DNA of 64,000 bases, taken from positions 1 to 64,000 of the forward strand of contig NZ_JAHHIR010000050.1 of assembly GCF_018678075.1 (NCBI RefSeq). The letters are read 5' to 3'. Made by a program: the position numbers and the translations under genes. A model generated the notes under the pieces. The model worked only from the letters and a program-made list of their open reading frames with translations, was not told where the DNA came from and ran no database searches. The DNA comes from Epibacterium ulvae. GTDB lineage: Bacteria > Pseudomonadota > Alphaproteobacteria > Rhodobacterales > Rhodobacteraceae. Shown here one piece after another: positions 429 through 48,581 of this stretch; within the stretch, counting starts at the first letter, position 1; every line of letters begins with the position of its first letter.

Positions 429-451
429 CGCCCGTTGAGAAGCGGAAAGCT

Positions 452-5335: not shown

Positions 5336-5359
5336 GACTTCTGCGTTGAGGGGAAATTC

Positions 5360-6948: not shown

Positions 6949-6975
6949 TGGGATATCCTTTCAAGGCAAGGGAGG

Positions 6976-7713: not shown

Positions 7714-7730
7714 GTCTTTCTCCTTTGTGT

Positions 7731-7748
7731 TGTCTGTGGAGATAGACA
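7731..7748. promoter_or_regulatory. candidate LysR operator
   Basis: Inverted repeat TGTCT-N8-AGACA in the intergenic region between the divergent SDR and LysR genes. Its size and place fit a LysR-type binding site that controls both promoters. Assignment is by symmetry and position only. Confidence 0.4.
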
Positions 7749-7806
7749 GAACTACAACCCAGATAATGACCCATGAATCGATATTAAAATTCGGAAATAG
7801 CGAACA

Positions 7807-9142: not shown

Positions 9143-10627
9143 GTGCAGCCACAAGTATCAATTTTACCGCGTCAGGCGCGCAAGAATGCGCCCATGCGCA
9201 TGTTTGCCGTGGCCGTTTTGGCCACTGCACTGATGATGGCACAGGCGATGGTCGCACAGGCGCGTCCTGAAAGCCTGGCACCTTTGGCGCAACAGGTGAG
9301 CCCGTCGGTGGTGAATATTACGACAACCACCGTTGTTGAAGGACGCACCGGTCCGCAAGGCATCGTGCCAGAAGGCTCGCCGCTGGAAGATCTGTTCCGT
9401 GATTTTCAGGACCGTGGTGACGAAGGCCGTCGCCCGCGCCGCTCTTCTGCGCTGGGGTCGGGCTTCGTTATTTCTGAAGACGGGTTCATCGTGACCAACA
9501 ATCACGTGATTGAAGGCGCCGATGAGATCGAGATCGAGTTCTTTCCAGGCGAAGGTCAGCCGGCCGAGCTGTTGCCGGCCGAGGTGATCGGCACCGATCC
9601 CAACACCGACCTTGCACTGTTGAAGGTCAAGGCGCCAATGCCGCTGACCTATGTGCAGTTTGGCGACAGTGACGCGGCTTTGGTTGGCGATTGGGTTGTG
9701 GCGATGGGCAACCCGCTGGGGCAGGGGTTCTCTGTTTCGGCTGGTATCGTCTCGGCTCGCAACCGGGCGCTGTCTGGCTCCTATGATGACTACATCCAGA
9801 CCGACGCTGCGATCAACCGGGGCAACTCGGGCGGTCCGCTGTTTAATATGGATGGCGAAGTGATCGGCGTGAACACTGCTATCCTGTCGCCCAATGGTGG
9901 CTCGATCGGTATTGGCTTTTCCATGGCGTCCAATGTTGTGAGCAAAGTTGTCGCGCAGCTGAAGGAATTTGGCGAAACCCGTCGCGGTTGGCTGGGTGTG
10001 CGCATTCAGGATGTCGACCAGGATGTGGCAGAGGCCATGGGTCTGGAAGTTGCCGAAGGCGCGCTGATCACCGACGTGCCGGATGGACCGGCCAAGGACG
10101 CGGGCCTGTTGTCGGGCGACGTCATCTTGACCTTTGACGGTGTTGATGTGGCCGATACCCGTGGGTTGGTACGTCAAGTTGGCAACTCGGAAGTTGGCAA
10201 AACAGTGCGCGTTGTCGTCTATCGCGAAGGCAAGACTGAAACCATTCGCGTGACCCTTGGGCGTCGTGAAGAGGCCGAGCGTCAGGCAACACCTGAGGGT
10301 GAGGCGGAACCAGAGTCGGAAGAAAGCGAAAAGCAGCTGTTGGGTATGACCGTTGGTCCGCTGGCCGAAGAGCAGCGCGAGACGCTGAATGTTCCCGAAG
10401 GGACCGATGGTCTGGTAATCATGTCCGTGGATGAAGCGGCGGAAGCCTGGGAAAAAGGTCTGCGCGCAGGTGATGTGATCACCGAGGCTGGCCAGCAAAA
10501 AGTGACCGATGTAGCCTCGCTTGAGGCGCGGATTGCCGAAGTGCAGGACGCGGGTCGCAAATCCCTGCTGCTGCTGGTGCGTCGCAATGGTGAGCCACGT
10601 TTTGTGGCGCTGAACCTGAGCGAGTGA
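9143..10627 (+). CDS. degQ: Do/DegQ-family periplasmic serine protease
   Basis: A 494-residue HtrA-type protease/chaperone for misfolded envelope proteins. An N-terminal signal sequence (MRMFAVAVLATALMMAQAM, cleaved near AQA) leads into a trypsin-like domain with the catalytic triad: His in NNHVIEG, Asp in NTDLALLKV, Ser in GNSGGPLF. Two PDZ domains follow (about 275-370 and 395-490), separated by a Glu-rich linker. GTG at 9143 is chosen because AAGGAG (9130-9135) lies seven bases upstream; the frame is open further back to a TTG at 9119. The gene is probably the ancestral neighbour of hflKC, now displaced. Confidence 0.92.
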   Translation: MQPQVSILPRQARKNAPMRMFAVAVLATALMMAQAMVAQARPESLAPLAQQVSPSVVNITTTTVVEGRTGPQGIVPEGSPLEDLFRDFQDRGDEGRRPRRSSALGSGFVISEDGFIVTNNHVIEGADEIEIEFFPGEGQPAELLPAEVIGTDPNTDLALLKVKAPMPLTYVQFGDSDAALVGDWVVAMGNPLGQGFSVSAGIVSARNRALSGSYDDYIQTDAAINRGNSGGPLFNMDGEVIGVNTAILSPNGGSIGIGFSMASNVVSKVVAQLKEFGETRRGWLGVRIQDVDQDVAEAMGLEVAEGALITDVPDGPAKDAGLLSGDVILTFDGVDVADTRGLVRQVGNSEVGKTVRVVVYREGKTETIRVTLGRREEAERQATPEGEAEPESEESEKQLLGMTVGPLAEEQRETLNVPEGTDGLVIMSVDEAAEAWEKGLRAGDVITEAGQQKVTDVASLEARIAEVQDAGRKSLLLLVRRNGEPRFVALNLSE

Positions 10628-10651
10628 TCGTAGACTTTTGAAATTGTAGAA

Positions 10652-10683
10652 AAGGCCGGGGATCATCTCCCCGGTCTTTTTTA
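10652..10683 (+). terminator. terminator of the Deg protease gene
   Basis: Stem GGCCGGGGA / TCCCCGGTC with a short loop, followed by a T run. It lies 24 bases after the stop and between convergent genes, so it may also limit transcription from the minus-strand Crp/Fnr gene. Confidence 0.85.
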
Positions 10684-10703
10684 TGTGCAGGACCTTTATG
10701 GGG

Positions 10704-11366
10704 TCAGATCATGTCGGGTTCGGCCAGCACTTCCAATTCGGCGCGGTCCAAGATTTCGACACCGCCACGGCTGATTTCCAGGATATCGTTGCGCTTCCAA
10801 CCGGCCAGCGTTTTGGACACCGCCTCCCGCGTTGCGCCGACATATTCTGCCAGTTCCGATTGAGACAGCGCCAGACGGCCATCTTGCCCCTCGGGCGATA
10901 GATGCAGCAGTTTGCGGGCAAGGCGTACGGGCAGGGGCATGAACACCTGTTCGTTCAACTGGGTGCTCATCCAGCGCATGCGTTGACCGGCCAGTCGCAG
11001 CAGGTCTTCGGCAAGTTCCGGGTGTTGTTGGATCTTGGCCAGCACATCGCGGCGGCGCAGACGGCGCAAGGAACAAAGCCCTACGGCATGGGCCGAGGCG
11101 GTGCGCACGCCGGGATCAAACAGCGCAATCTCACCAAAGACGGCCCCGGCGCGCAGCCTGTCCAACGTGTGTTTGCGCCCGGTGGAGGACAGAACAGACA
11201 GTTCCAGCTCTCCTTCGATCAGGGCAAACAGTGCCTCGCCCGTGTCGCCTTGCTCAAACAAAGTATCGCCAGATGCGAGGGTGATCTCGCTGGCCTGACT
11301 GTCGAGCATATCGCGCAACCGGTCAGAGGCACCGGACAAAAAACCGGTGGTGGGCAATGAGACCAT
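10704..11366 (-). CDS. Crp/Fnr-family transcriptional regulator
   Basis: A 220-residue regulator with an N-terminal cyclic-nucleotide-binding-like beta barrel (FEQGDTGEALFALIEGELEL, then GAVFGEIALFDPGVRTASA) and a C-terminal winged helix (LSQSELAEYVGATREAVSKT). The GEIALFDPGVRTASA segment resembles the cAMP pocket of Crp. There is no N-terminal Cys cluster, so it is not an oxygen-sensing Fnr. The ATG at 11366 follows an AAAGGAG site. The frame is open for 20 more codons upstream, but those have no family match. The ligand is unproven. Confidence 0.88.
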   Translation of the reverse strand: MVSLPTTGFLSGASDRLRDMLDSQASEITLASGDTLFEQGDTGEALFALIEGELELSVLSSTGRKHTLDRLRAGAVFGEIALFDPGVRTASAHAVGLCSLRRLRRRDVLAKIQQHPELAEDLLRLAGQRMRWMSTQLNEQVFMPLPVRLARKLLHLSPEGQDGRLALSQSELAEYVGATREAVSKTLAGWKRNDILEISRGGVEILDRAELEVLAEPDMI

Positions 11367-11442
11367 GGAAGGCTCCTTTGTGTTTTGAGCCGGTTTCAGG
11401 CTGATCCAACACCGCGCCAACGGCACTGGTCGGGGGAACTGG

Positions 11443-11985
11443 TCAACGTTTGACCGAAATCAAACCAAGTTTGCGGGCATTTTCAAGTGAGAGTGTCGGA
11501 CTGTCGAGGCCTTGACTGCGTTGATAGGCTAATATTCCCCGTTGCGTCGCGCGATCCAGCACTCCGGTCAGGGGACCAGGGAAATGTTCGCGCGCGGCCA
11601 GAGCACGTTGCAGCGTGGCGACAAAATCGGGTGAAAAATCCGCCGGGCAGAGGGTTTCGAACCAGGCTTCACTGCGGGGGCGGACAACTTCTTGTCGCGT
11701 CACGGTGCGAAAGGTGGCGGGAGCCGTGACCTGTCCGGTGGCATCCACACGGGGCGGGGTGACCTGTTCCTGGCGGGTGACGGTTTCGATTACGGCCGGC
11801 GTAATTTCAGTATCCCAGCAGCTGCCCGCGGGCGCGCCGGGAGGCGTTTTTTGGGACGCGCTGCGCACCGATTGCCCAAGCCCTTGCGGCACACGTCCCG
11901 GACCTTCGGGCGCGCAAGCCGACAGCAGCACCGCGATGAGTGCTGGCAGCAGTGTATAGAGTCGGCGGGAAAGGTGGTAAGGCAT
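11443..11985 (-). CDS. lipoprotein with peptidoglycan-binding-like C-terminus
   Basis: A 180-residue protein with a type II signal peptide (LPALIAVLLSAC, lipobox Cys at about residue 24), so an outer- or inner-membrane lipoprotein is predicted. The middle part carries two similar segments (ETVTRQEQVTPP and RTVTRQEVVRP), an internal repeat. The C-terminus (FPGPLTGVLDRATQRGILAYQRSQGL) resembles the PG_binding_1 fold. No enzymatic motif is visible. A structural or cell-wall-anchoring role is an inference. Confidence 0.7.
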   Translation of the reverse strand: MPYHLSRRLYTLLPALIAVLLSACAPEGPGRVPQGLGQSVRSASQKTPPGAPAGSCWDTEITPAVIETVTRQEQVTPPRVDATGQVTAPATFRTVTRQEVVRPRSEAWFETLCPADFSPDFVATLQRALAAREHFPGPLTGVLDRATQRGILAYQRSQGLDSPTLSLENARKLGLISVKR

Positions 11986-12023
11986 TGGTATAAAAGTGAC
12001 GTCGCGCTAGGATTGCGGGAAGG

Positions 12024-12431
12024 TTAGCCGAAGTCGTCGACCGGCGCAAAGGCTGGATCGTCGCTGCGCCCCTGTGGGGCCAGAAGAAGGTCGAGCATGG
12101 GGGAAATATCCTCAATCTGATGGGCGATCACATGGGTGACGGAATGGGCACGCTGCACTTGTCCGGTGACCCGCAGCAGCCGTCCGGCAATCACCGCACG
12201 GCGGAAGGTTTCATACATCTTGCGCCAGACAATGATGTTCACCACGCCGGTCTCATCCTCCAGGGTGAGAAAGATTACCCCTTTGGCGGTGCCGGGGCGC
12301 TGTCTGAGAATCACCAGCCCGGCCACGGTGACATGTATATCGTTGCGACAGCCCTTGAGTGCCGCAGCGGGCAGGCTGGCGGGGCCGGGAAAGGCAGATG
12401 GGGTGTCAGGCGTTTGCATAAGGGCGGTCAT
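12024..12431 (-). pseudogene. dnaE2: 3' remnant of error-prone DNA polymerase DnaE2 (OB-fold only)
   Basis: A 135-residue frame whose residues about 30-120 match only the C-terminal OB-fold of the alpha-subunit-like polymerase DnaE2: VTVAGLVILRQRPGTAKGV, then LEDETGVVNIIVW. Full DnaE2 proteins exceed 1000 residues, and none of the PHP or polymerase domain is present upstream. The first about 28 residues are unrelated to that fold. A perfect alphaproteobacterial SOS box lies 59 bases upstream of the start, which fits a former imuA-imuB-dnaE2 cassette reduced by internal deletion. The open frame could still yield a small OB-fold protein. Confidence 0.65.
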
Positions 12432-12466
12432 GGCATCGATGATGGTGTGTAATGTCTAGGTTCTGA

Positions 12467-12948
<482 letters not shown>

Positions 12949-35205: not shown

Positions 35206-36189
35206 TTACTTACCCTTTACGCCCGCTGCAGTGATGAGCGGTTTCCAGACGTCGATCTGTGTGCCAACAAAGCCGGTGAACGCTTCGGTCGACAGCGGCT
35301 GATGGGTGATGCCGAGATCGTTCAGAGTTGTGGCAACTTCGGGCAAGGCCAAAACGGCCAGCGTGGTCTCATGGATCTTGGCTGCGATTTCCGGATCAAT
35401 GCCCGCAGGACCTGTCAGGCCGACCCAGTTTTCGATCACGATGTCAAAACCCTGTTCCTTGAACGTAGGCACGTCCGGCATGCCGGGGAAGCGTGCAGAA
35501 GCTGCAATCGCGATCGCCACTGCCTCGCCGTCTTCGATCATGTCCGAGTTCTGCGCGACCATGTCATAGAACGTGTCCAAAACACCGGCGCGGAAGTCCT
35601 GGATCGCCGGTGCGCTGCCTTGGTAGGGGATGTGCAGGGTTTCAACGTGCAGGCTTGCGTCCACCGCTTCGCCCAAGATGTGGCTGATGGAGCCAACGCC
35701 GGATGAGCCGTAGGAGATTGAGTTCGCCTTGGCTGCCTCAACAAATTCCGACACCGTGGTGATGCCGCTGTCAGGCTTCACAAACAGACCGGGCGCGGAG
35801 GCACCGATATAGGCCACATGGGTGAAGTCGTTCATTGGCGCGTAGGGCAGTTCTTCGAACTGGGTCGGTGCGATGGTGAAGGGGGCGTTGTTGGCGATCA
35901 TCAACGTGGTGCCATCCGCGTCCTGATCGGCGACAAAGTCAGCCGCAACTGTGCCTGCTGCACCGGGACGGTTGTCGACGACGGCCTTTTGACCGAAGGA
36001 TTCATCCAGATGTTTGGCCAGAAGGCGCGCCACCAGATCCGAGGTGCCACCGGGTGGGAAGGTAACAACGATGCGCACCGGTTCATCGGACCAAGCGCCC
36101 GGTTCTGCCAGAGCTTGGCCAGCAGGCAGGGCAAATACGGCGGCAGAGGTCAGCGCCATAAGCGCACGTCGCGTGAGTGAGAGGGTCAT
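35206..36189 (-). CDS. tctC: TTT-family substrate-binding protein (TctC/Bug)
   Basis: A 327-residue periplasmic binding protein of the Bug family, with an N-terminal signal peptide (LTSAAVFALPAGQALAEP). Hallmarks are PVRIVVTFPPGGTSDLVARLLA, the two-domain fold with ADFVADQDADGTTLMIANNAP, and ISYGSSGVGSISH. It captures a carboxylate or similar small ligand for the tripartite tricarboxylate transporter. Its start overlaps the tctA stop (ATGA). The ligand is unknown; the neighbouring ureide-like enzymes suggest it is linked to purine or ureide breakdown. Confidence 0.88.
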   Translation of the reverse strand: MTLSLTRRALMALTSAAVFALPAGQALAEPGAWSDEPVRIVVTFPPGGTSDLVARLLAKHLDESFGQKAVVDNRPGAAGTVAADFVADQDADGTTLMIANNAPFTIAPTQFEELPYAPMNDFTHVAYIGASAPGLFVKPDSGITTVSEFVEAAKANSISYGSSGVGSISHILGEAVDASLHVETLHIPYQGSAPAIQDFRAGVLDTFYDMVAQNSDMIEDGEAVAIAIAASARFPGMPDVPTFKEQGFDIVIENWVGLTGPAGIDPEIAAKIHETTLAVLALPEVATTLNDLGITHQPLSTEAFTGFVGTQIDVWKPLITAAGVKGK

Positions 36190-37727
36190 GAGGAGGCTCC
36201 TGTGTTGGACGAGGTTTTGTTATTGGAATGAGCGGTTTTGGGTGCGCGCGATTTGCGCAGAGTGGTCCACAGGCCATAGGCCAGGATCAAAGCAGACACT
36301 GCGAGCAGGCCGCCGCTGATGGGACGTTCCAGGAACACCATGGCGTCACCGCGTGATAGAAGAAGGGCGCGGCGCAGTTGCTCTTCCATCATCGGGCCAA
36401 GAACAAAGCCGATCAGCAGGGGCGCAGGCTCAAAGCGGTAAAGCCGCATCAGATAACCCGCGATCCCGAATAACAGCGTCATCCAGATGTCAAAGACGTT
36501 GTTGTTAAGCGAATAGACCCCGATGCAGATCAGCACGATGATCGCCGGATACATCAGCTTGTACGGGATTTGCAGCAGTCGCACCCACATGCCGATCAGC
36601 GGGATGTTCAAGACCAGCAACATGATGTTGCCCACCAGAAAGCTGGCGACCAGACCCCAGAACAGCTCGGGGTGTTCGGTCAAAATGCGGGGGCCGGGGG
36701 TGATGCCGTGGATCATCAGGGCACCGATGACCATTGCCATGCTGGCGCTGCCCGGCACACCCAGCGTCAACGTGGGAATAAACGCGGTTTGGGTGGCTGA
36801 GTTGTTGGCGGATTCCGGTACGGCCACGCCTTCTACGGCGCCTTGGCCAAATTGGTCTTTGTTTTTGGACACTTTCTTTTCAACCGCATAACCCACGGCC
36901 GCGGCGACGGTCTGGCCGGTGCCAGGTAGCGCGCCAAAGAAGGATCCGATCAGACCACCGCGCCAGATGGGGCCAAAGGAGGCACGCCATTCGCGACGGG
37001 TGGGGTAGAATTTGGTGTAGTCGATCTCTTGACGGCCACGGCCGGTTTGGTTGGCCTTAATCGATGCGATCAGCTCGCCCACCCCAAACAGCCCCATGGC
37101 GACGATCACCAGATGCACCCCGTCGCGCAGTTCGGGCACGCCAAGGGTAAAGCGCAGATCGCCAGTTGTGAGGTCGATGCCCACGGTGGACAGCATCAGC
37201 CCGGCCATCACCATGGCAATGCCGCGCAGCGCTCCGCCATTGCTGACGGCCGATGCCGCGATAAGGCCCAAGAAAATCACCGAGAAATACTCGGCCGGGC
37301 CAAATTGCAGCGCCAGTTTCGCAAGCCCAGGCGACAGAACCGCCATCACAATCATACCAATGATCCCGCCCCCAAATGAGGCGATTGAGGTGATGAACAG
37401 GGCTACGCCCGCGCGACCCTGACGGGCCATGGGATAGCCATCGATACAGGTGATGGATGAGGACGGTGTGCCCGGAATGTTCATCAGGATCGACGCGATC
37501 GAGCCGCCGTATTCCGCACCATAATAGACCCCGGCGATCATCACGATAGCCACGGTCGGCTCCAGATAAAACGACAAGGGCAGGATCATCGCAATCGCGG
37601 CCATAGAGCCGATGCCCGGCAAGACGCCGATGAACGTGCCCAGGAAGACGCCGATGAAACAATAGAGCAGGGTTTGGGGCTGTAGAACAGTGCCCAATCC
37701 GCCTGAGAAATTTGCAATAATTTCCAT
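36186..37727 (-). CDS. tctA: TTT-family large permease (TctA)
   Basis: A 513-residue, twelve-helix permease of the tripartite tricarboxylate transporter. The conserved glycine-rich motifs are present: GTFIGVLPGIGSMAAIAMILP, GGSIASILMNIPGTPSS and SFFGALPGTGQTVAAAVGYAVE. The C-terminal tail after the last helix is Ser/Thr/Asn-rich. It works with TctB and TctC and is driven by the ion gradient. Start 37727 lies three bases after the tctB stop. Confidence 0.92.
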   Translation of the reverse strand: MEIIANFSGGLGTVLQPQTLLYCFIGVFLGTFIGVLPGIGSMAAIAMILPLSFYLEPTVAIVMIAGVYYGAEYGGSIASILMNIPGTPSSSITCIDGYPMARQGRAGVALFITSIASFGGGIIGMIVMAVLSPGLAKLALQFGPAEYFSVIFLGLIAASAVSNGGALRGIAMVMAGLMLSTVGIDLTTGDLRFTLGVPELRDGVHLVIVAMGLFGVGELIASIKANQTGRGRQEIDYTKFYPTRREWRASFGPIWRGGLIGSFFGALPGTGQTVAAAVGYAVEKKVSKNKDQFGQGAVEGVAVPESANNSATQTAFIPTLTLGVPGSASMAMVIGALMIHGITPGPRILTEHPELFWGLVASFLVGNIMLLVLNIPLIGMWVRLLQIPYKLMYPAIIVLICIGVYSLNNNVFDIWMTLLFGIAGYLMRLYRFEPAPLLIGFVLGPMMEEQLRRALLLSRGDAMVFLERPISGGLLAVSALILAYGLWTTLRKSRAPKTAHSNNKTSSNTGASS

Positions 37728-37730
37728 CGC

Positions 37731-38210
37731 TTAAAACGCCCGAAATGCTTTGAACGGGAGGCCAAGCGCCTCGATGAACAGAACATAGCCAAGCGCGGCC
37801 ATGAAGAGGCCCAGCAGGATTTTACCCCACCACGGCAGGCTGCGATCGGGCGCCGATGCTGTGAGCACGGTCAGAAATGTTGCAGGCAACAGCCCAAAAC
37901 GCTCCGTCACAAGGGCAAAGACCATCAGCGCGGAGACTATCGCGCCAAAGGACACCCAATCAGGGCGTTCGGTGATGCCGGTGGAGTGCAGATCCTGCCA
38001 TAAAATCGCCGCTGCCAGGGCGAGCAGGACAAGACCGGAGAAGAACGGAAACGCCCCGGTGCCCGGACGAAACGGGCTTCCAAGCCCCAACTCAAACCCG
38101 CCGATCATGAAATAGAGGCTCAACGCCACCAGAACCGACGCGCCGGCGATCCGCTCGACCTGTTGGCCCAACGTAGCGCGCTGGCCGTCTTCCAATTCAA
38201 TCTGCATCAT
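37731..38210 (-). CDS. tctB: TTT-family small permease (TctB)
   Basis: A 159-residue, four-helix small subunit of the tripartite tricarboxylate transporter. The PGTGAFPFFSGLVLLALAA segment is typical of TctB. ATG 38210 overlaps the stop of the HIUH-like gene (ATGA) and is preceded by GGGGGC; a longer reading adds ten residues with no family match. The operon order on the minus strand is uraD-like, hiuH-like, tctB, tctA, tctC. Confidence 0.85.
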   Translation of the reverse strand: MMQIELEDGQRATLGQQVERIAGASVLVALSLYFMIGGFELGLGSPFRPGTGAFPFFSGLVLLALAAAILWQDLHSTGITERPDWVSFGAIVSALMVFALVTERFGLLPATFLTVLTASAPDRSLPWWGKILLGLFMAALGYVLFIEALGLPFKAFRAF

Positions 38211-38569
38211 AAGCCCCCGCGAAACAGTGAATATCCCCAAGCCGTGAATTTGAACGGCAGGTGATAGTGTTGCTGGGCATCGCCGACGCCGAAATGATAC
38301 CGCACCACATTGAGGAAAGGCGCGCGGTCTTGTGAAGCGTCAGTGCCTGCGTAATAGGCAGCGACCTCGAATTCGGCGATGTATTCGCCAGATGTGATCC
38401 CGTGGCCCTGAACCGTGGGGTGATCAAACAGACCGGTTTCACCGCACTGCCCGTGGGCCAATTCAGTTTCGCCACTATCATCGACCCGCAGCAGGCGCAC
38501 TGCCAACCCTTCGGCTGGCCGACCTGTTGACACGTCAACGCAATGGATTGAGATACCGCCAGCTGTCAT
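38207..38569 (-). CDS. divergent 5-hydroxyisourate hydrolase (transthyretin-like)
   Basis: A 120-residue protein of the HIUH/transthyretin fold. His9 (SIHCVD) and His103 (HYHLP) of the catalytic set are present. The usual catalytic Arg of the DGR segment is replaced: the sequence reads GETGLFD, with Leu47 there. The C-terminal YRGS tetrapeptide is replaced by FRGGL. Both differences suggest a changed or lost reaction. It overlaps both neighbours by four bases (ATGA), so its product is tied to the OHCU-like protein and the transporter. Confidence 0.75.
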   Translation of the reverse strand: MTAGGISIHCVDVSTGRPAEGLAVRLLRVDDSGETELAHGQCGETGLFDHPTVQGHGITSGEYIAEFEVAAYYAGTDASQDRAPFLNVVRYHFGVGDAQQHYHLPFKFTAWGYSLFRGGL

Positions 38570-39102
38570 CTGTGCCCCGCTTCGCCAAAGGCTTTGGTGA
38601 CACGGGCTGCGCTGACAGATGCAATCTCGGCGACGGCCTGTTTGATCTCAGCGTCGCGGGTGCGCTTCAGGCGGTCTTCAAAGACCTGCAAAACCTCTGA
38701 CACGCCGCTCATCCGATGCAGGGCCAGGATGAAGGGAAAGCCAAACCGCGTCTGATATTCAGTATTTAACTGGGTGAACCGCGCGGTCAGTGCGGCGTCC
38801 GGGGCATCCAGGCCAAGGCGCCCTTGTTCTTCCTGTGAGGCGCGGGTCATTGTTTCGGGGGTCGGAGGGGCCAATTCAGGATGGGCGCGGAACAAGGAGA
38901 AAAGATCATCCTCGGGCAGGGTTTGAATGGCGGTCTGAATGCTGCGGGCGATAGCATCAGGGGATGCGAAGGGGCGGTGTTGTGCGACCAGTTCAGCCAC
39001 CTGCGGCGCGCGCTCAATAAAGGGCAGCAAAAGCTCTGCGGCCAGCGCGTCATCCGCGTGGTTGAGCCTGTCCAATTCGGTGTCTGTCAGAGGTGTGGTC
39101 AC
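38566..39102 (-). CDS. OHCU decarboxylase-like protein
   Basis: A 178-residue protein of the 2-oxo-4-hydroxy-4-carboxy-5-ureidoimidazoline decarboxylase (UraD) fold, which normally completes the urate-to-allantoin step. Family marks are FRAHPELAPP (catalytic His), ASQEEQGRLGLD, and FTQLNTEYQTRFGFPFILALH. It is divergent from a LysR regulator and first in the operon with the HIUH-like gene and the tripartite transporter. Urate oxidase is not in the window. The real substrate may differ from OHCU. Confidence 0.8.
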   Translation of the reverse strand: MTTPLTDTELDRLNHADDALAAELLLPFIERAPQVAELVAQHRPFASPDAIARSIQTAIQTLPEDDLFSLFRAHPELAPPTPETMTRASQEEQGRLGLDAPDAALTARFTQLNTEYQTRFGFPFILALHRMSGVSEVLQVFEDRLKRTRDAEIKQAVAEIASVSAARVTKAFGEAGHR

Positions 39103-40210: not shown

Positions 40211-40564
40211 ATGGCCCATATTTTGATTGTAGACGATGAACCCTTGCTGCGTGAAGAACTTCAAGAATCCCTCGAGCTGGAAGACTATGAGGTTTCGACC
40301 GCGGAATCTGGGCCAGACGCGCTAGAGTTGTGTGATGTTATGGCGTTCGATGTTGTCGTGACGGATCTAAAGATGCCCAAAATGGGGGGATTGGAGCTGA
40401 TCCGGAAACTAAAGGAAACGGGCTTTGGTGGGCAGCTTATCGTGGTCAGCGGGCACGGCGCTGAAAGCAATCGAGCGGACGCAATGGCCAGCGGTGCCGT
40501 TGCGTGTTTTGCGAAACCACTTGATATTGAAGAGTTAATTGAAAAACTGGACGCAATTCTTTAA
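40211..40564 (+). CDS. stand-alone response-regulator receiver (CheY-like)
   Basis: A 117-residue receiver domain without output. It has the acidic pocket DDE (residues 8-10), the phospho-acceptor Asp52 in VVTDLKMPK, Ser80, and Lys102 in FAKPLD. Without an output domain it can act only by binding a partner or passing a phosphoryl group. It is the first gene of a same-strand cluster: receiver 2, PhnD-like protein and histidine kinase. A GGAGG site precedes the ATG. Confidence 0.9.
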   Translation: MAHILIVDDEPLLREELQESLELEDYEVSTAESGPDALELCDVMAFDVVVTDLKMPKMGGLELIRKLKETGFGGQLIVVSGHGAESNRADAMASGAVACFAKPLDIEELIEKLDAIL

Positions 40565-40729
40565 CAGTCGACGCCCCAGTTTTCGCCATCCCTCCTTGGA
40601 TTAGGCCGCAATATCCTTTGGAATAGGCGGCCAAAACGCTTTGGGATATGACTCTGGATTAGGGTTTGTTGCCGCGCATCTCTATCCGCCATTGTGACCT
40701 CACAAATTTGGTTATGAGGAGTGCGTTCA

Positions 40730-41263
40730 ATGGCTGATATTTCCACAAAAGATTGCAAAGCAAACCTAACCGTTCTGCTGGTCGACGATGACAAGGAAGC
40801 ACTGGAAGAGCTTCAGGATATTGTTGAGCTGGAAGGTTGGACTGCAATTATCGCGGGCAATGTTGATATGGCGCTGGAGGTGCTGGAATGGTACCCCTAC
40901 ATCGGCGTCGTGGTAACTGATGTTCACTTCATCGACCAGTCCGGCGACACGTCCAGCGGCTTCCAGCTGGTCTCTCGTGCCCAGGCTCGGTTCCCAGATC
41001 GCGACCTGTCCTACATTGTGACCAGCGGCGATCCCTGGGCCTTTAACGGCTCGGCGCAGGCGGGGGCGGTTGATTTCCTCAGCAAACCCTTGGAGCCGGA
41101 TGCGTTGATCGACTCGATCAAGGCTTTTGCCGGCAAGGGCGCGGCACTGACGGACAATCCCGACCGTGATGACAATCTGCTGGAGAAGGTCCAGCAAACC
41201 GCGCAGACCCTGCATGACAAAACCACCCAGATCGAGGGTGTGGTGACGGGAGCAGTGGTATGA
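40730..41263 (+). CDS. second response-regulator receiver with C-terminal extension
   Basis: A 177-residue receiver-domain protein. The pocket is DDD (19-21), the phospho-acceptor is Asp64 (VVTDVHF), and Lys119 is in FLSKP. The loop after Asp64 (FIDQSGDTSSGFQL) is longer than usual. The last about 45 residues (KVQQTAQTLHDKTTQIEG) form an amphipathic helix rather than a DNA-binding domain. ATG 40730 follows GAGGA; an earlier GTG at 40721 is less likely. The stop overlaps the next gene (ATGA). Confidence 0.85.
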   Translation: MADISTKDCKANLTVLLVDDDKEALEELQDIVELEGWTAIIAGNVDMALEVLEWYPYIGVVVTDVHFIDQSGDTSSGFQLVSRAQARFPDRDLSYIVTSGDPWAFNGSAQAGAVDFLSKPLEPDALIDSIKAFAGKGAALTDNPDRDDNLLEKVQQTAQTLHDKTTQIEGVVTGAVV

Positions 41264-42126
41264 AGCGCCTTGTTCTTGCCGCGTTCTGCGCTGGTGTCAC
41301 ATGCGCCCCGGCTGCTCAGGCCACAACGGCCGATGCCCCGTCATCGGATGTTTTGACATTTGGCATCGTGCCGCAACAATCTGCCAGCCGTTTGGCCCGA
41401 ATGTGGGGCCCGTTGTTGGCAGAGCTGAGCACACGAACCGGGGTCACATTCCGGTTCAGAACCACCAAAGACATCCCGTCGTTTGAGGCCTGCCTGGCCG
41501 CGGGCGCCTATGACATGGCTTATATGAACCCGATGCACTACACGATTTTTGCCGAAGAAAGCGCCTATCGTGCGGTAGCGCGCCAGTCCCATAAACGGTT
41601 GAAAGGGGTCATCGTCGCGCGCAAAGGGGCGGATCTGGATGCGTTGGAGGTCTTGGATGGATCCCAGATCGCCTTCCCATCGCCCGGTGCCTTTGGCGCC
41701 AGTATCCTGACCCGCGCGACGCTCAGCGATCGCGATATCGCGTTCGAACCGGCCTATGTTAAATCCCATGACAGTGTCTATCGCGCGGTGGCGGCGGGGC
41801 TGATGCCTGCGGGCGGCGGGGTCACGCGGACCTTTAACGCGGTAGACCCGGAAATCCGCGCGCAGTTGGAGGTGGTTTACGAAACCGAGGGCTTCACCCC
41901 GCATGCCATTGCCGTCCATGACGGCGTAGGCGCAACATTCTCAACCGAAATCCAAGACGCCTTGATGGCGATTGCCGCGGAAAAACCTGAGCTGGTCAAA
42001 GGGGTCGGCATGAAAGGGTTTGAGGCCGCCCATGATGCGGATTGGGACGATGTACGTGCCCTCGAAATGACCCGCGAAGAGACCGGGATTTCACAAGCGG
42101 GGGATGCTGTATGTCCTTCCGATTGA
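41260..42126 (+). CDS. PhnD-like periplasmic binding protein
   Basis: A 288-residue protein of the PhnD/phosphonate-binding class, with a signal peptide (MKRLVLAAFCAGVTCAPAAQA). The fold is seen in LTFGIVPQQSASRLARMWGP, GAYDMAYMNPMHYTIF and IAFPSPGAFGASI. No phn transport gene is nearby. It overlaps both a receiver gene and the histidine-kinase gene, so it probably senses a ligand for that kinase rather than feeding a transporter. Candidate ligands are phosphonates, phosphite or another small anion; none can be chosen from sequence. Confidence 0.85.
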   Translation: MKRLVLAAFCAGVTCAPAAQATTADAPSSDVLTFGIVPQQSASRLARMWGPLLAELSTRTGVTFRFRTTKDIPSFEACLAAGAYDMAYMNPMHYTIFAEESAYRAVARQSHKRLKGVIVARKGADLDALEVLDGSQIAFPSPGAFGASILTRATLSDRDIAFEPAYVKSHDSVYRAVAAGLMPAGGGVTRTFNAVDPEIRAQLEVVYETEGFTPHAIAVHDGVGATFSTEIQDALMAIAAEKPELVKGVGMKGFEAAHDADWDDVRALEMTREETGISQAGDAVCPSD

Positions 42127-44102
42127 AAACTATTTTAGGGATTGCCATGATCGAATTGACGGTCATGGCGCTGTTGATTGCGATCAACCAATTTGCGCTG
42201 GGCGGATCTGCGACGGCGCAGCTGTATCAACGTGCTGAATCCACCGCGCGGGTGTTTTCAAATGCGGTGTCTGATGCGGTGATCGCAACGGATCTTGCGA
42301 CGCTGGATGCGACGATTGAAACTGCGCTTGGCAGTGAAGAGCTCACCTATCTGCGGGTGCGGAGCCCCGACGGGATTGTCTTGTCCGAAGGCGGTGCCGC
42401 TGATGCCCTGGCCGTGCCATTTCAACGTGACGCATCATTTGACACGGCTCGCACGGATCATGTGATCGACATCGACCTGGCGATCACAGTCGAAGGCACG
42501 ACCTTTGGCGTTATTGAATTGGGCCTGTCCACGCTTGCCGTCGAGGAAGAGATCGCAGCCGCCTTGCGCTGGAACGTGATTGTGGCGATGATCGGAATGT
42601 CGCTGGTTGCGGTCTTTGGCTACGGGCTCGGCTCTATCCTGACCCATCAGTTGAGCGGGCTGCGCCAGGGCGCGCGCGAGATTGCGACGGGAAATCTGGA
42701 GTGTCAGATCCGGGTGCGTGGTGGTGACGAGCTGGCGGATACCGCGCTGTGTTTCAATGAAATGGCCCGCACCCTGTCACAGGATCGCGCGGTTCTGCAG
42801 AGCCAACGCAATACGCTCCTGGCCAAGAAAGAACGGGTCGGGGTGATTGTCGACTGTATGCGGCAGATCTCGAAAAACGAAGACGGGGTAACGGTGCCGG
42901 ACACGGATCGCAGCGATGAAATCGGCGATATGGCACGCGCAACTGTGGTCTTCCAAAATGCGATGCAAGCGGTCGAACAGGCGCGTCATGAACAACAGCG
43001 TCTGATCTCCGCTTTTGATCAGTTGGATGAACAGGTGGCGATTTTTGGCACCACAGGCGAGGTCTTGTTCCTGAACCGAGCCTTCCGGGCCTTTAACCAG
43101 CCCATCCTGGAAACATTGCCCGAAGACTTCACGTTGGAGCTTTTCTTGCAGGCAGGCTGTGCAGCGGATGCCTTCCCGGACGCTGGCACCAATCAAGCGG
43201 TCTGGATCAAAGATCAGCTCGCCCGAGAACACGGCACGCCGCAAGAGATCAAGCGCGCACCGGATCGGATCCTGCTGACCGTGCAAACGGATGTCGATGG
43301 CGTCGGCGTGGTCTGGTCCGCACAAGACGTGACAGAGCTGCGCCACAACGAACACCAACTGATCCAAGCGTCAAAAATGGCAACACTGGGTGAGATGGCG
43401 ACGGGCATCGCACATGAGTTGAATCAGCCCTTGGGCGTGATCCGCATGGCCGCATCAAACTGTGTGAAACGGATCGAAAAGGACAAATTCGACGCGGAGT
43501 ATTTCAAGGCCAAATTGCTCAGGATGGGAGAGCAGACAGAACGCGCCTCCCAAATCATCAACCACATGAGGGTCTTTGGGCGCAAAGCGGAAGGCACGAT
43601 GGAGCCCTTTGATCTGCGGGCATCGCTTACCGAAATGGTGACATTGGCGCGGGCCCAGCTGCAGACACTGGATGTCTCGCTCAAACTGTCGCTACCAGAG
43701 GCGGGGGATGGCACTGTGATGGGTGAAAAGGTGATTTTTGAGCAGGTGCTATTAAACCTCTTTAGCAATGCACGCGACGCGATTGACGCTCAGGAGGGGC
43801 GCGGTGGCACGGTTCAGGTCGAGGCTAAGTTCGACACGCCGGACGGTCATGTTCTGCGCATCATGGACAGCGGCGGCGGCATTCCGGATAGTGTCTTGGA
43901 CAAACTGTTTGAGCCGTTTTTCACCACCAAGGAGCCGGGCAAAGGCACCGGGCTGGGCCTGTCGATCAGCTTTGGCACGATCCGCGATATGGGCGGCTTG
44001 ATTACTGCTCATAACGCAGGGGAGGGTGCGTGTTTCACAATCACCTTGCCTGCAGCACAGGTTGCGTTGGGGGATGAGACGCCCGCCATTGCGGCAGAAT
44101 GA
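42111..44102 (+). CDS. membrane sensor histidine kinase
   Basis: A 663-residue kinase. Two membrane helices (about 8-28 and 150-172) frame a periplasmic sensor of about 120 residues. A HAMP segment ([20 protein letters not shown]) follows. A PAS-like domain starts near [20 protein letters not shown]. The phospho-acceptor His435 lies in [11 protein letters not shown] (DctB-type H-box). The ATPase domain has [21 protein letters not shown] and [13 protein letters not shown] 42111 lies 16 bases inside the preceding binding-protein gene. The kinase presumably phosphorylates one or both nearby receivers. Confidence 0.9.
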
Positions 44103-44155: not shown

Positions 44156-45463
44156 CTATCCCTGCGGACGGACGCTGTTTGGCAGCCATGTCGCAAGTTC
44201 CGGCCAGGCCACCAGGATCACCACCATCAGCAGCATCAGCCCCACCATAGGAATGGCGGTTTTTGCGATGTAGGAAATCTCGTGCCGGGTCATGCCTTGC
44301 AGCACAAAGAGGTTGAACCCAATAGGCGGCGTGACCTGCGCGGTTTCAATCACCACCACCAGGAAAATCCCAAACCAAATCACATCAATCCCGGCGGTCC
44401 GGATCATCGGCTCCACAATCGCCATGGTCAGGACAACCGAGGACAGACCGTCCATGAACATGCCGAGAATAAGGTAGAAGACGGTGAGCACCGCAATCAG
44501 CGCAACCGGTGACAGGTTGTAGCTTTCGATCAAAGTGGCCATCGCGCGCGGTAGGCCGGTAAAGCCCATCGACAGCGACAGGAACTCAGCCCCCATCAGG
44601 ATCAAGGCGATCATCGCAGATGTCTTGGTCGCGCCCATCAAGCTGACAGAGAAGGATTTCCAGTTCAGCGAACCTTGCAACAGCGACAGCCCCAATGCGC
44701 CCAGAACGCCAACAGCGGCGGCTTCGGTTGCGGTGGCAAGGCCCATGTACATCGACCCGATCACCACAAAGACCAGCCCCAAAACGGGCACCAGAAACCG
44801 GCTTTCGGAGAGCATCGCGCCAAAGGACATGCGCGGTTCCGGGGCCGGACGCGCGCCTTTGCCAAAGTAGTGCCACCCAATGATGTACGTGGCAAACAAC
44901 CCAGCCAGCACGAGGCCAGGCAGAACGCCGGCCATGAACAGTTTGGTGATGCTTTCGTTCACCGTCACGCCGTAAACGATCAACGTAAGCGACGGCGGGA
45001 TCATTAGGCCCAGTGTCGCGGCACCGGCCAATGTGCCAATGATCATATATTCCGGATAGCCGCGTTCGCGCAGGGCCGGGATCGACATTTTGCCCACCAT
45101 ATTGAGCGTTGCAGCAGAAGAGCCAGAAACCGCAGCAAAAATGGTGCAGCCGGCGATATTGGTGTGCAGCAGGCCTCCGGGTAGGAACCGCATCCACGGT
45201 GCAAGGCCGCGAAACAGATCTTCGGAGAGACGGGTGCGATAGAGGATCTCTCCCATCCAGATAAACAGCGGCAGCGCGGTCAGGGTCCAGGACGAAGCTC
45301 CAGACCATATTGTGGTGACCATGGCGTCGCCCGCGGGGCGGGAGGTGAACAGCTCCATCCCTACCCAGGCGACGCCCATCAACGCCATGCCGATCCACAC
45401 CGAACCGCCCAACAGGGCAAAGAGTGTGAAGATAAAGATTGCAGTTGCATAAAGCTCGGTCAT
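44156..45463 (-). CDS. dctM: TRAP transporter large permease (DctM)
   Basis: A 435-residue, about twelve-helix large subunit of a TRAP transporter. Family segments include FAAVSGSSAATLNMVGKMSI, GTLAGAATLGLMIPPSLTLI and QVTPPIGFNLFVLQGM. It works with DctQ and the binding protein DctP. ATG 45463 overlaps the dctQ stop (ATGA). The frame is open 45 codons upstream but those overlap dctQ and have no family match. Confidence 0.92.
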   Translation of the reverse strand: MTELYATAIFIFTLFALLGGSVWIGMALMGVAWVGMELFTSRPAGDAMVTTIWSGASSWTLTALPLFIWMGEILYRTRLSEDLFRGLAPWMRFLPGGLLHTNIAGCTIFAAVSGSSAATLNMVGKMSIPALRERGYPEYMIIGTLAGAATLGLMIPPSLTLIVYGVTVNESITKLFMAGVLPGLVLAGLFATYIIGWHYFGKGARPAPEPRMSFGAMLSESRFLVPVLGLVFVVIGSMYMGLATATEAAAVGVLGALGLSLLQGSLNWKSFSVSLMGATKTSAMIALILMGAEFLSLSMGFTGLPRAMATLIESYNLSPVALIAVLTVFYLILGMFMDGLSSVVLTMAIVEPMIRTAGIDVIWFGIFLVVVIETAQVTPPIGFNLFVLQGMTRHEISYIAKTAIPMVGLMLLMVVILVAWPELATWLPNSVRPQG

Positions 45464-46173
45464 TCGACGCCTTCCTGCTGGATGTGGACTTCGCAGGTTG
45501 CAAGAAGGCGGGTCAGATGGTCCCAGACGGCAACAGCCAGCAAAACGGTGCCGATTGACATCGGAATTTGCGGCAGCCAGATCGGCGTGTAGACCCAATC
45601 CGATCCGCTCTCAGCCCAGAGCCTCCCCCAGTTCCACGGCCAGGTGCCAAACATAGAGACGGACGTCAGCAGCCATTCCGGCACAAAATCCTGCCCCTGG
45701 GTGCGGTCGTTGATCAGTTCCGACAGGAAATTGGTCTTAATCGCGTAGCGGGCAAAATACGTGGCGACACAGGCGGACAACAACATGGCCACCGCATCCA
45801 GCCAGAACCGGTGGCCGTTTTTGCCATTCAACAAGATCGACACACGAATATGCGCCCCTTGGGTCAAAGCATAGGCCAGCGCAAAGAACGAGGTCGCAGC
45901 CATCGCATAGCCGGAATATTCGGTGGATCCCGGAAAGGTGAGCGAGGACCAGCGCGCCACCATTTGTGCAACGATCAGCAGCAAAATACTGACCATGAAA
46001 AAGGACGCCACGACGCCAGCCGCCACATAGACCTTGTCGAGGACGCGCCAGATTGGACGCAACAGCCCCACCATCATCGGACCTTGAAACAGGCACAATG
46101 CGGCGAGGCAGGTTGGAAAAACAAACAGCCAGACCCACAATGGTAGGCCCAGCACAAGATGCCAGTCTCGCAT
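45460..46173 (-). CDS. dctQ: TRAP transporter small permease (DctQ)
   Basis: A 237-residue small subunit, longer than a typical DctQ (about 170) because of an extra N-terminal helix pair (LPLWVWLFVFPTCLAALCLF). The core has FPGSTEYSGYAMAATSFFAL and AHIRVSILLN, the usual DctQ signature. ATG 46173 follows a GGAG site; another ATG nine codons upstream has none. An additional region of about 45 residues (ELINDRTQGQDFVPEWLLTS) lies before the last helix. Confidence 0.88.
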   Translation of the reverse strand: MRDWHLVLGLPLWVWLFVFPTCLAALCLFQGPMMVGLLRPIWRVLDKVYVAAGVVASFFMVSILLLIVAQMVARWSSLTFPGSTEYSGYAMAATSFFALAYALTQGAHIRVSILLNGKNGHRFWLDAVAMLLSACVATYFARYAIKTNFLSELINDRTQGQDFVPEWLLTSVSMFGTWPWNWGRLWAESGSDWVYTPIWLPQIPMSIGTVLLAVAVWDHLTRLLATCEVHIQQEGVE

Positions 46174-46230
46174 GATATTCTCCGCAAAAAGGTCCTGCAC
46201 CTTGGGCAGCGCAGGACCAAAAGGATGAGG

Positions 46231-47196
46231 TTACTTGGCGGCGAATGCGTCCAGAATGGCCTGTCCGTCGTCACCAACGGTTTCAAGCCATTCGGCGGTC
46301 ATTTTGGCACCGATGGTTTCCAGCTCCGCCTTGAAGCCGTCTTCTGCGTCTTCCACGGTCATGCCATTGGCTTCTAGCTGTTCGAAATACCAATTGGCAA
46401 GCTCTTCCGATTTGGCAAGGCAGGCGGCGCCCGTTTCATCTGCGGCCTTTTGCAGACCGGCTTTGGCAGCGTCGTCCAGCCCGTCCCAGATGCCTTTGTT
46501 GACCATCACATAGTTGCGCGGCAGCCAGGCGTTGACCTTGTAGTAATGGGTCAGATGTTCCCAAACCTTGCGGTCATATCCGGTTGACCCGGATGAGATA
46601 AAGGCCTCCGCCACGCCGGTTGCCAGCGCCTGGCTCAACTCGGCCGCCTCAATCTGCACGGGGATCATGCCCAGCTGTTCGGCAAAGGTCGCCGTAGCGG
46701 TGTTGTAGGAGCGGAATTTTATGCCTTGGGTGTCGTCAGATGAGCCCACTTCTTTTTTGAAATAAAACCCCTGGCCCGGCCATGGGCAGGAATAGAGCGT
46801 GACTAGGTTTTGTTCGGCCAGCACTTCGTTGACGGGACCTTTGGCGGCCTGCCACAGGGCTTCGTTGTCGGCATAGGTCGTGGCGACAAAGGGCAGGTTG
46901 TCCCAGCCCAGAATGGGGGACTCGTTGGCGTGGGCCGACATGAAACGCTCACCGATTGGGACCTGACCTGTCTGCAAAGCGCGCTTTATCTCAGCGCCGC
47001 CATAGAGCGAGCCGCCCGGATGCACAGTGATGTCCACGGCGCCATCGGTGTAGTCGCGGACCTTATCGGCAAAAGCCACGGCCATTTCGGAATGGTAATT
47101 GCTGGCGGAATAGGCGGTGGGCATGTCCCATTTTTCGGCGATGGCAGATGTCGCGCCGAGCGCGAGCAGTAAGCTGACGGTTGATACGGATTTCAT
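46231..47196 (-). CDS. dctP: TRAP transporter substrate-binding protein (DctP)
   Basis: A 321-residue periplasmic binding protein with a signal peptide (VSTVSLLLALGATSAIAEK). Family features are VHPGGSLYGGAEIKRALQTG, FRSYNTATATFAEQLGMIPV and the conserved ligand segment AAELSQALATGVAEAFISSG. An AGGAGTG site precedes the ATG at 47196. It is first in the operon DctP-DctQ-DctM and next to a DadA-like oxidase gene, which suggests an amino-acid or amine ligand. Confidence 0.9.
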   Translation of the reverse strand: MKSVSTVSLLLALGATSAIAEKWDMPTAYSASNYHSEMAVAFADKVRDYTDGAVDITVHPGGSLYGGAEIKRALQTGQVPIGERFMSAHANESPILGWDNLPFVATTYADNEALWQAAKGPVNEVLAEQNLVTLYSCPWPGQGFYFKKEVGSSDDTQGIKFRSYNTATATFAEQLGMIPVQIEAAELSQALATGVAEAFISSGSTGYDRKVWEHLTHYYKVNAWLPRNYVMVNKGIWDGLDDAAKAGLQKAADETGAACLAKSEELANWYFEQLEANGMTVEDAEDGFKAELETIGAKMTAEWLETVGDDGQAILDAFAAK

Positions 47197-47229
47197 TGGT
47201 GGCACTCCTGTTGGTTTTATCGGTTTTTC

Positions 47230-48480
47230 TTATGCACGCTTGGTAAAGCGCATTGGGTCAAAGGGGCTGAGGTCCGCATTTGGCGTATCCCCTCCGATCA
47301 AATCAGCTATGAGGCGACCTGTTTTCGGGCCACCGGTCAAGCCGATATGATGATGTCCAAAGGCCGTAAAAACGCCAGAGCCGCGAATTTCACCAACCAG
47401 TGGGAGACTGTCTGTGGGGGCAGGGCGGAAGCCCAGCCATTCTTTTTCGGACTCTGCAGTGAGGCCGGGAAACATCCGACGGACGCTTTTGCGCAGCAGA
47501 TCCAGAGGGGCACGGGATTTCGTCTCGCTCAAGCCGCCAAACTCCACAACGCCCGCACAGCGCAGACCGGCTGCCATGGGGGTGGCGACAAATTTCCCTT
47601 CAGCCAGCATCATCGGGGCATTGGGCGTCTGGCTCGGGCCTTTGAACAGGATGTGATAACCGCGCTCGGCTTCTAGCGGCACCTGCACACCCAGTTTTTG
47701 CATCAATGGCTTCGACCAAACCCCCGCCGCCAGAACTGTATGGGTGCAGGGAAAGGCGCCCTGATCGGTCTCAACCGCTGTGATCTTGTCGCCGGTATAG
47801 GTGAAATCCTTCACCTCGGCCTGAACGCGTTTTCCGCCCATCTCTTCAAAGACCTGCACCAGATCCTGCACATAGTTGGCAGGATCCGTCACATAGCCGT
47901 GGTCTTTGTTCACAGCCAGAAGCCCCGCGTCCTGGCCGAGGATGGGTTCGCGGGCGCGCACCTCTGCGCCTTCGACAATCTCGGGCTCAAACCCTGCGTC
48001 GCGGCGCAGATCCCAGGCAAATCGGTCGGCCTCAAAGGCGGCGCGGTCGCGGTACACATAGCTGTAGTCGCTGGTTTTGACCCATTTCGCGGCTGGCGTT
48101 CCTGCGGACAGGGCGAGGTGCTGATCCACGCTGTCGCCCAGAAGCGCGTTCAAACCGTGGGAGATCCGGGTCGTGTCCTTTGCATTGGCATTTGCCATGT
48201 AACGCGCGAGCCAGGGCAGAAGGCGCGGCAGGTGGCGCCAGCGCATGAACAGTGGAAAATTCCGGTTCAACAGATATCCCGGTGCTTTGGCCATCAGACC
48301 CGGACCGGTGACCGGAACCACAGAACAGCGCGCCAGGATACCGCCATTGCCAAAGGACGCGCCGTGGCCGGGCGTGTTCTTGTCGATCAATGTCACGTCC
48401 AGCCCTTTGCGCCGCAGCCACAGCGCGCTTGCTGCACCCACGATCCCGGCACCAATGACGACCACAGAAGGCTTGTTCAT
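47230..48480 (-). CDS. DadA-like FAD-dependent amino acid oxidoreductase
   Basis: A 416-residue protein of the D-amino-acid dehydrogenase/oxidase class. The FAD motif is VVVIGAGIVGAASALWLRR, followed by the SFGNGGIL segment. The C-terminal FTAFGHHHIGLTGGPKTGR matches the FAD-site tail of this family. It would oxidise a D-amino acid, a cyclic imino acid such as D-hydroxyproline, or sarcosine-like amine at the membrane. It sits 33 bases from dctP and on the same strand, so uptake and oxidation are probably one unit. ATG 48480 follows GGAGCGAAT. Confidence 0.85.
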   Translation of the reverse strand: MNKPSVVVIGAGIVGAASALWLRRKGLDVTLIDKNTPGHGASFGNGGILARCSVVPVTGPGLMAKAPGYLLNRNFPLFMRWRHLPRLLPWLARYMANANAKDTTRISHGLNALLGDSVDQHLALSAGTPAAKWVKTSDYSYVYRDRAAFEADRFAWDLRRDAGFEPEIVEGAEVRAREPILGQDAGLLAVNKDHGYVTDPANYVQDLVQVFEEMGGKRVQAEVKDFTYTGDKITAVETDQGAFPCTHTVLAAGVWSKPLMQKLGVQVPLEAERGYHILFKGPSQTPNAPMMLAEGKFVATPMAAGLRCAGVVEFGGLSETKSRAPLDLLRKSVRRMFPGLTAESEKEWLGFRPAPTDSLPLVGEIRGSGVFTAFGHHHIGLTGGPKTGRLIADLIGGDTPNADLSPFDPMRFTKRA

Positions 48481-48581
48481 ATTCGCTCCACACATTCGAC
48501 TGCGGCTAGAGTGGAGAGCGCTTGGCATCATTTCAAATACAAAAATTTGCCAAAGACATCACGAAAAATTATAAAACCGCC

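Follow-up and report, generated by a model that had tools for sequence, protein, structure and literature searches.

Positions 40211 to 44102 of the 64,000-nucleotide stretch of Epibacterium ulvae DNA analyzed here (contig NZ_JAHHIR010000050.1, positions 1 to 64,000; the whole stretch is designated “the window”) carry four genes, for a receiver (RR1), a second receiver with a tail (RR2), a periplasmic binding protein of the PhnD fold (PBP) and a membrane histidine kinase (HK). The four genes very probably act as one signalling unit in which PBP and HK are paired. The complete explanation that we favor, in which PBP switches a kinase that feeds two receivers with a link to cyclic di-GMP (c-di-GMP), is about evenly balanced between right and wrong. 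Taken by itself, c-di-GMP as the output is a tentative assignment with somewhat less than an even chance.

Organization and conservation of the cassette

RR1 (40211-40564, + strand; 117 amino acids; Response_reg, 2.4e-29) is a single-domain receiver with phospho-Asp D52. RR2 (40730-41263, + strand; 177 amino acids; Response_reg, 5.7e-10) is a receiver with phospho-Asp D64 and an extra loop of five residues, followed by a tail of ∼40 residues. Its start was taken to be the ATG at 40730, the first start listed by the open reading frame tool being a GTG at 40721. Response_reg was the sole Pfam domain in each receiver, and EAL was absent from RR2 of the window in the same Pfam analysis. PBP (41260-42126, + strand; 288 amino acids) matches Phosphonate-bd (PF12974) at 5.6e-55, with 186.8 bits against a cut-off of 27. 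HK (42111-44102, + strand; 663 amino acids) was assigned from its Pfam domains, a predicted model and an 18-row alignment. RR2 and PBP overlap by 4 base pairs (bp; ATGA), and PBP and HK by 16 bp. These coordinates confirm the single strand and the overlaps among the last three genes that were described in an initial annotation of this DNA, and its residue numbers for D52, D64 and the kinase histidine H435 are also correct.

To define relatives, a collection of species genomes was scanned with PBP. This yielded 117 loci; the 80 best were retained (13 Roseobacter-group loci, L015 to L027, and 67 others). The window shares the order and strand of RR1-RR2-PBP-HK with every one of the 13 Roseobacter-group loci, which indicates that the four-gene arrangement is not due to chance. 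The 4-bp overlap between the RR2 stop and the PBP start is present in 14 of 14 cassettes, as ATGA in 12 and as TTGA and GTGA in L018 and L023, respectively. The 16-bp PBP/HK overlap is likewise present in all 14, with an HK start of ATG in 12 and GTG in L020 and L021, and three further alphaproteobacteria (L028, L113 and L114) have it as well. A fifteenth locus, a partial cassette on a contig that starts at PBP (L107; G416, 1-8000), was left out of these counts. Its PBP gene has a stop in the signal-peptide region and is without the C-terminal Cys present in the others.

Flanks of ∼5 kb on each side were compared, counting genes as common when the shorter protein matched over 60% of its length with 35% identity or more. 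By this measure the 14 cassettes lie in at least 10 different contexts. Flank genes are common only to the window, L015 and L016 and to L025 and L026, with one more distant gene common to the window and L027; no further gene within these flanks is common to different contexts. Because so few flank genes are held in common, the four genes themselves are taken as the unit. The initial annotation had proposed gene order in other genomes as a check on whether they belong together, and the order is the same in 13 of 13 relatives.

The cassette is a self-contained, patchily distributed module. Of the 18 genomes in the genus, 6 have RR2; with a threshold of E ≤ 1e-60, PBP was found in 4 of 394 sampled family genomes and in 4 of 385 class genomes (each count including the window's own genome). 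Among plasmids, 10 records from Vibrio and Salinivibrio contain relatives at E ≤ 1e-40. No relative was found in viral contigs by a search whose reach was confined to close relatives.

The binding protein and its kinase

PBP begins with a stretch that resembles a signal peptide by eye. Its AlphaFold model (pLDDT 86.5) gave PtxB (E 8.8e-20), HtxB, PhnD, ArrX, AioX and XAC2383 as best Foldseek matches. The curated families were not reached (TIGR03431, 59.2 of 261.1 bits; TIGR01098, 79.2 of 112.05 bits); PBP belongs with PhnD and PtxB by fold and by PF12974, and falls short by curated score.

The pocket was compared with that of AioX, for which Tyr88, Cys106, Tyr131, Ser161, Ser163, His192 and Asp210 are given as ligand residues in a portion of the published description (PMC5908839). 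In an alignment read by hand, the corresponding positions in PBP are I72, N90, a gap, A144, G146, H170 and a gap, so that one of seven ligand residues is kept (H170 for His192) and Tyr131 and Asp210 fall in gaps. Alignment of the PBP family (96 rows, representing 85 distinct loci and 11 duplicates) revealed invariant Q39, Q40, E76, Y88, N90, H170, Y174 and H215, and Ala at position 144 in 95 of 96 rows. The family has its own conserved pocket. With so few AioX ligand residues kept, it is unlikely that the ligand is phosphonate, phosphite or an arsenic oxyanion. Phosphonate, phosphite and arsenate, which the initial annotation had named for expression profiling, are not supported as ligands, since the positions of the AioX Ser-x-Ser and of Cys106 and Tyr88 are all replaced.

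A C78-C285 disulfide was also considered as a functional signature. Both cysteines occur in 24 rows, C78 alone in 1 and neither in 67 (92 rows, duplicates included). Outside the Roseobacter group the bearers are L028, L113 and L114, all alphaproteobacterial and all with the 16-bp overlap. Since this overlap itself encodes the C-terminal Cys, the pair may be one inherited trait, which weakens the candidate.

HK comprises a periplasmic part (residues ∼53-141), HAMP (176-223), a weak PAS (303-414), HisKA (426-494) with H435, and HATPase_c (542-649). HAMP, HisKA and HATPase_c exceed their Pfam cut-offs. Of the domains annotated initially, HAMP and the numbering of H435 hold, while PAS is below cut-off (18.3 versus 27 bits), although an AlphaFold model whose overall pTM is only 0.35 has an alpha/beta stretch at ∼308-406. 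In this model the periplasmic part forms a small alpha/beta domain with a long helix on either side (block pLDDT 75-88, with the same low whole-model pTM). No sensor fold was named among the 50 Foldseek matches listed for HK, which were to kinases and photoreceptors. Across 18 sequences, of which four are gammaproteobacterial, the periplasmic residues D61, Y80, R82, F104, D107, D116, D120 and E136 are invariant. M1 and S2 are also invariant in this 18-row alignment, and the kinase motif columns are conserved.

Outside the Roseobacter group, HK directly follows PBP in 62 of 67 loci. Of the five exceptions, L049 and L074 run into a contig end after the kinase start, L085 has a kinase match by phmmer, and L073 and L089 do not fit. 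This adjacency, together with the conserved periplasmic columns, agrees with the earlier view of PBP as a partner of the kinase. The window's genome holds four other PF12974 matches over cut-off. Note that at one locus of this genome (L133; G000:C33, 5607-8861) a second PhnD-like binding protein adjoins a hybrid histidine kinase, its receivers having been identified by eye.

Two receivers and their probable shared kinase

Helix alpha-1 of a receiver is the face on which the kinase docks. Between RR1 and RR2 of the same genome, mean identity over the 13 positions of alpha-1 is 0.45 (14 genomes, range 0.23-0.62) versus 0.28 over the rest of the domain. As a control, RR1 of the window alone was compared with 143 receivers of other loci, several per locus and including those of hybrid kinases, giving 0.16 in alpha-1 and 0.29 elsewhere. 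The highest alpha-1 identity among these controls was 0.46, versus 0.54 for the window's own RR1 and RR2. This likeness favors a shared kinase, and both receivers are probably served by HK.

Receivers canonically conserve the phospho-Asp, an acidic pair, a Ser/Thr and a Lys. In RR2, all 14 sequences have D20, D21, D64, S99 and K119, and the D52 motif of RR1 is conserved in its own 14-row alignment. Ratios of nonsynonymous to synonymous substitution rates (dN/dS) were 0.07-0.20 for RR1 and 0.05-0.17 for HK in seven pairs. For RR2, one of the seven pairs was saturated and the other six gave 0.03-0.19, similar to HK; several dS values exceed 2. RR1 and RR2 are under purifying selection, and the RR2 values speak against a decaying pseudogene.

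The second receiver and its EAL fusion

Neither receiver had been annotated with an output domain. This is correct for the window, for RR1 in 14 of 14 cassettes and for RR2 in 11 of 13 relatives. In the other two, RR2 continues behind the same tail into EAL, which is a c-di-GMP phosphodiesterase domain. These are L018 (449 amino acids, E 8.5e-62), a Rhodobacteraceae metagenome-assembled genome (MAG) identical to G025 (locus L013), and L023 (446 amino acids, E 2.6e-33), which is Pelagimonas phthalicica. The remaining 12 of 14 RR2 proteins stop after the tail of ∼40 residues. The motifs expected of an EAL domain are EAL, N, E, DDFGTG, K, E and Q. Judged from the translations against this list, the EAL of L018 retains the motifs and that of L023 is degenerate and without most of them. 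RR2 fused to an intact EAL is probably a c-di-GMP phosphodiesterase.

The helical tail of RR2 in the window resembles the linker that precedes EAL in these relatives. An 18-residue stretch of the tail, picked after the alignment had been seen, scored above all 5000 shuffles against the linkers of both L018 and L023. The long loop noted in the initial annotation was confirmed by alignment, the distance from the phospho-Asp to the next Gly being five residues greater than in RR1. It occurs in fused and bare RR2 alike and is therefore unconnected with the missing output. Among the 14 cassettes, the same L018 and L023 that bear EAL are the only ones in which PBP would start with TTG (L018, 5026-5029) or GTG (L023, 5923-5926) rather than ATG.

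Cyclic di-GMP genes near related pairs

For loci outside the Roseobacter group, domains in flanks of ∼6 kb were assigned with iterated profiles built from Pfam-checked seeds. Kinases were divided into non-hybrid (the type in the window) and hybrid. Near non-hybrid kinases, a gene with EAL, GGDEF or HD-GYP was found at 34 of 41 loci, a response regulator of this kind at 33, H-NOX at 12 and a sigma-54 regulator at none. The corresponding values for hybrid kinases were 4 of 21 for c-di-GMP genes, 0 of 21 for H-NOX and 12 of 21 for sigma-54 regulators. Fisher's test on the c-di-GMP genes gave p = 1.5e-6, a value that is too small since many loci are close kin (e.g. Vibrio). One related pair lies on a 396-kb mobilizable plasmid of Vibrio sp. 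THAF191c (L116, 4282-16789), where the annotation includes H-NOX, ATP-binding (kinase) proteins, PBP, Hpt, an HD phosphohydrolase, EAL, CheC, a receiver and HDOD.

The window's genome has 3 EAL and 5 GGDEF matches. Its nearest relative of the L018 EAL is a GGDEF-EAL protein on contig C85 (39.5% identity). A likely orthologue of this protein (48-100% identity) was found in 15 of 16 distinct genomes (17 of 19 entries), cassette-free genomes among them; it is missing only from the L018 genome (best match 33%), an 82%-complete MAG that accounts for two of the entries. As evidence for a partner, this distribution is only suggestive.

H-NOX was tried as additional support for a c-di-GMP link and rejected, its presence being genus-wide (17 of 18 genomes, and 16 of the 19 genome entries searched first). 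No H-NOX was found in the flanks of the 13 Roseobacter-group loci. In the window's genome it is on a different contig (C52), where it has a GGDEF gene on each side (8489-12716).

The RR1-RR2 gap and neighboring genes

Three GGATAGG-like direct repeats at 40598, 40620 and 40643 (22 and 23 bp apart; 40598-40650, + strand, with the array noted to 40663) form a candidate operator between RR1 and RR2. At least one repeat pair spaced 21-23 bp is present in 7 of 14 cassettes and none in the other 7, while base shuffles gave 0.003-0.18 pairs per gap. A strict form of the pattern matches the window's genome once, in the RR1-RR2 gap. It also matches four other genomes of the genus once each, in G013 at its cassette, and fails to match four of the six cassettes in this genus. 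No regulon emerged from the search with the array, 5 matches in 18 genomes being found versus 4 for a reversed control. A palindrome scan located a perfect TTGTGA-CC-TCACAA before RR2 (40692-40705). Its arms are kept in L015 with a changed spacer, and the best palindromes listed for the remaining gaps do not include it; L017 and L027 have GTGTAC-N4-GTACAC in the same gap. Promoter and terminator scans gave results at chance level.

Upstream (35206-39102) the cassette is flanked by what, judging from the translations, are presumably tripartite tricarboxylate-type transporter genes and genes for ureide-pathway-like enzymes. Downstream (44156-48531) are presumably a TRAP-type transporter and a D-amino-acid dehydrogenase-like gene, named in the same way.

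Proposed mechanism and alternatives

In the mechanism that we propose, PBP would be a PhnD-fold periplasmic protein, probably not part of a transporter, that binds a small ligand other than an oxyanion of the PhnD or AioX type. As suggested by the fixed pairing and by AioX/AioS, it would dock on the periplasmic domain of HK and thereby set autophosphorylation at H435. HK may then phosphorylate D52 of RR1 and D64 of RR2 through their shared docking helix. RR1 would serve as a single-domain receiver that shares or drains phosphate, and RR2 as the output arm. In the least certain step, RR2 of the window would act by protein contact, most likely on the turnover of c-di-GMP by an enzyme whose gene lies elsewhere. 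Output by contact or through an outside partner was also the earlier expectation, which stands for the window; the fused EAL of relatives adds a hint of c-di-GMP. One specific form of this scheme, unlikely as it stands, is a module with a detachable c-di-GMP output. RR2 would work as an EAL fusion in some species, while in most the bare RR2 with its tail would gate a host phosphodiesterase in trans, here perhaps the GGDEF-EAL protein of C85.

Several observations weigh against a c-di-GMP output. No c-di-GMP gene was found in the flanks of 11 of 13 Roseobacter-group loci, and the other two have only the fused EAL. H-NOX is present in the genus with or without the cassette and so lends no support. 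The alphaproteobacterial loci L113 and L114 adjoin a receiver with a weak C-terminal helix-turn-helix match that is below cut-off. Branching at the base of the 14 cassettes differs between trees: the HK tree places bare L022 outside the other 13 (support 96/90) and joins L018 with L023 (99/98), while the PBP tree places L018 outside (93/92) and L022 with L023 (83/84). In the four-gene tree the base is not resolved, and forcing L018 and L023 together costs nothing (p-AU 0.50). The EAL domains of L018 and L023 are mutual kin (98/93) and group with the GGDEF-EAL protein of the window's genome (95/93; L023 on a long branch), and may be a late fusion. They do not group with the receiver-EAL proteins found beside related pairs in gammaproteobacteria, and for this reason RR2-EAL was rejected as a direct orthologue of HnoB. 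Given the conflicting trees and the placement of the EAL, both loss of EAL from a fused ancestor and late fusion are possible.

The main rival, somewhat unlikely in our judgment, dispenses with c-di-GMP and treats the bare receivers as a device for tuning kinases, either as a phosphate sink or as a direct kinase inhibitor. The real output regulator of HK would then be encoded elsewhere, or the receivers would inhibit another kinase. A precedent within the order is Osp, a single-domain receiver that inhibits CckA in Rhodobacter sphaeroides according to an excerpt of the published account (PMC9430884). Bare RR1 in 14 of 14 cassettes, bare RR2 in 12 of 14 and the lack of an output gene common to the flanks are as tuning would predict; the EAL borne by RR2 in 2 of 14, and the c-di-GMP genes that adjoin most related pairs with the same kinase type, are not.

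Distinctly improbable is an output in transcription, by way of an unlinked DNA-binding regulator that HK would also phosphorylate. The pairs in L113 and L114 with their adjoining helix-turn-helix candidate, the sigma-54 regulators near 12 of 21 hybrid-kinase relatives and the phased repeat array before RR2 in 7 of 14 cassettes all point in this direction, but sigma-54 regulators accompany 0 of 41 non-hybrid kinases and no DNA-binding regulator is common to the flanks of the 14 cassettes. That PBP serves a phosphonate-type ABC transporter and adjoins the kinase by accident is very improbable: although its Pfam and Foldseek matches are to the PhnD/PtxB fold and the genome holds four further PF12974 matches over cut-off, the PBP/HK overlap is kept in 14 of 14 cassettes, HK adjoins PBP in 62 of 67 loci outside the Roseobacters, the pocket residues are replaced, and no permease is common to the flanks of the 14 cassettes (no dedicated permease search of the window was made).

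If the proposed c-di-GMP mechanism is true, the cassette would show how a sensory module moves between genomes with its enzymatic output attached or absent. Natural fused and unfused versions of one receiver allow a direct comparison, and the RR2-EAL relatives hint at where the missing output may lie. In addition, a PhnD-fold family with its own invariant pocket recurs beside kinases and genes for c-di-GMP in marine proteobacteria.

Comparison with known systems

Periplasmic binding proteins inform kinases in TorT/TorS and PgtABC. The cassette is far below the curated NCBIfam cut-offs for the latter (PgtA, 41 of 650 bits; PgtB, 128 of 1000 bits). The initial annotation had likened PBP to TorT, and its role as a partner of the kinase is upheld; as precedents, AioX/AioS, ArrX and XAC2383-XAC2382 are the closest, ahead of TorT/TorS. 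In Xanthomonas citri, the PhnD-fold receptor XAC2383 is reportedly paired with XAC2382, a membrane diguanylate cyclase of a c-di-GMP system, so that the partner there is not a kinase with receivers. PBP matches XAC2383 in structure (TMq 0.73) at 15% identity.

In AioX/AioS/AioR, ArxXSR and ArrXSR, as here, a PhnD-fold protein is encoded beside a membrane histidine kinase. The cassette differs from AioX-type systems in being without a DNA-binding regulator and having two bare receivers instead, and PBP differs from AioX itself in having N90, I72, A144 and G146 for Cys106, Tyr88, Ser161 and Ser163. Osp of Rhodobacter sphaeroides is not known to be part of a binding-protein/kinase cassette. Its likeness to the receivers proposed here lies in being output-less and acting by protein contact, as stated in the excerpt cited above (PMC9430884). 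For arsenic sensing by AioX, the portion of the description cited above has the PhnD-fold periplasmic protein act through a membrane histidine kinase, in sensing and not in transport (PMC5908839). The HnoX-HnoK-HnoB-HnoD network, covered in part of a review (PMC8846402), is alike in having a kinase that feeds a receiver-EAL regulator. It differs in that no H-NOX is near the Roseobacter-group cassettes and that the EAL of RR2 is not closest to those EAL domains. Within the binding-protein clan, the same part of that review names only SBP_bac_3 as studied in c-di-GMP networks (PMC8846402). Listings and abstracts of open-licence literature gave no account of this cassette, which is no proof of absence. 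Kinases gated by binding proteins and receivers without outputs are both already known; it is their arrangement in this cassette that is new.

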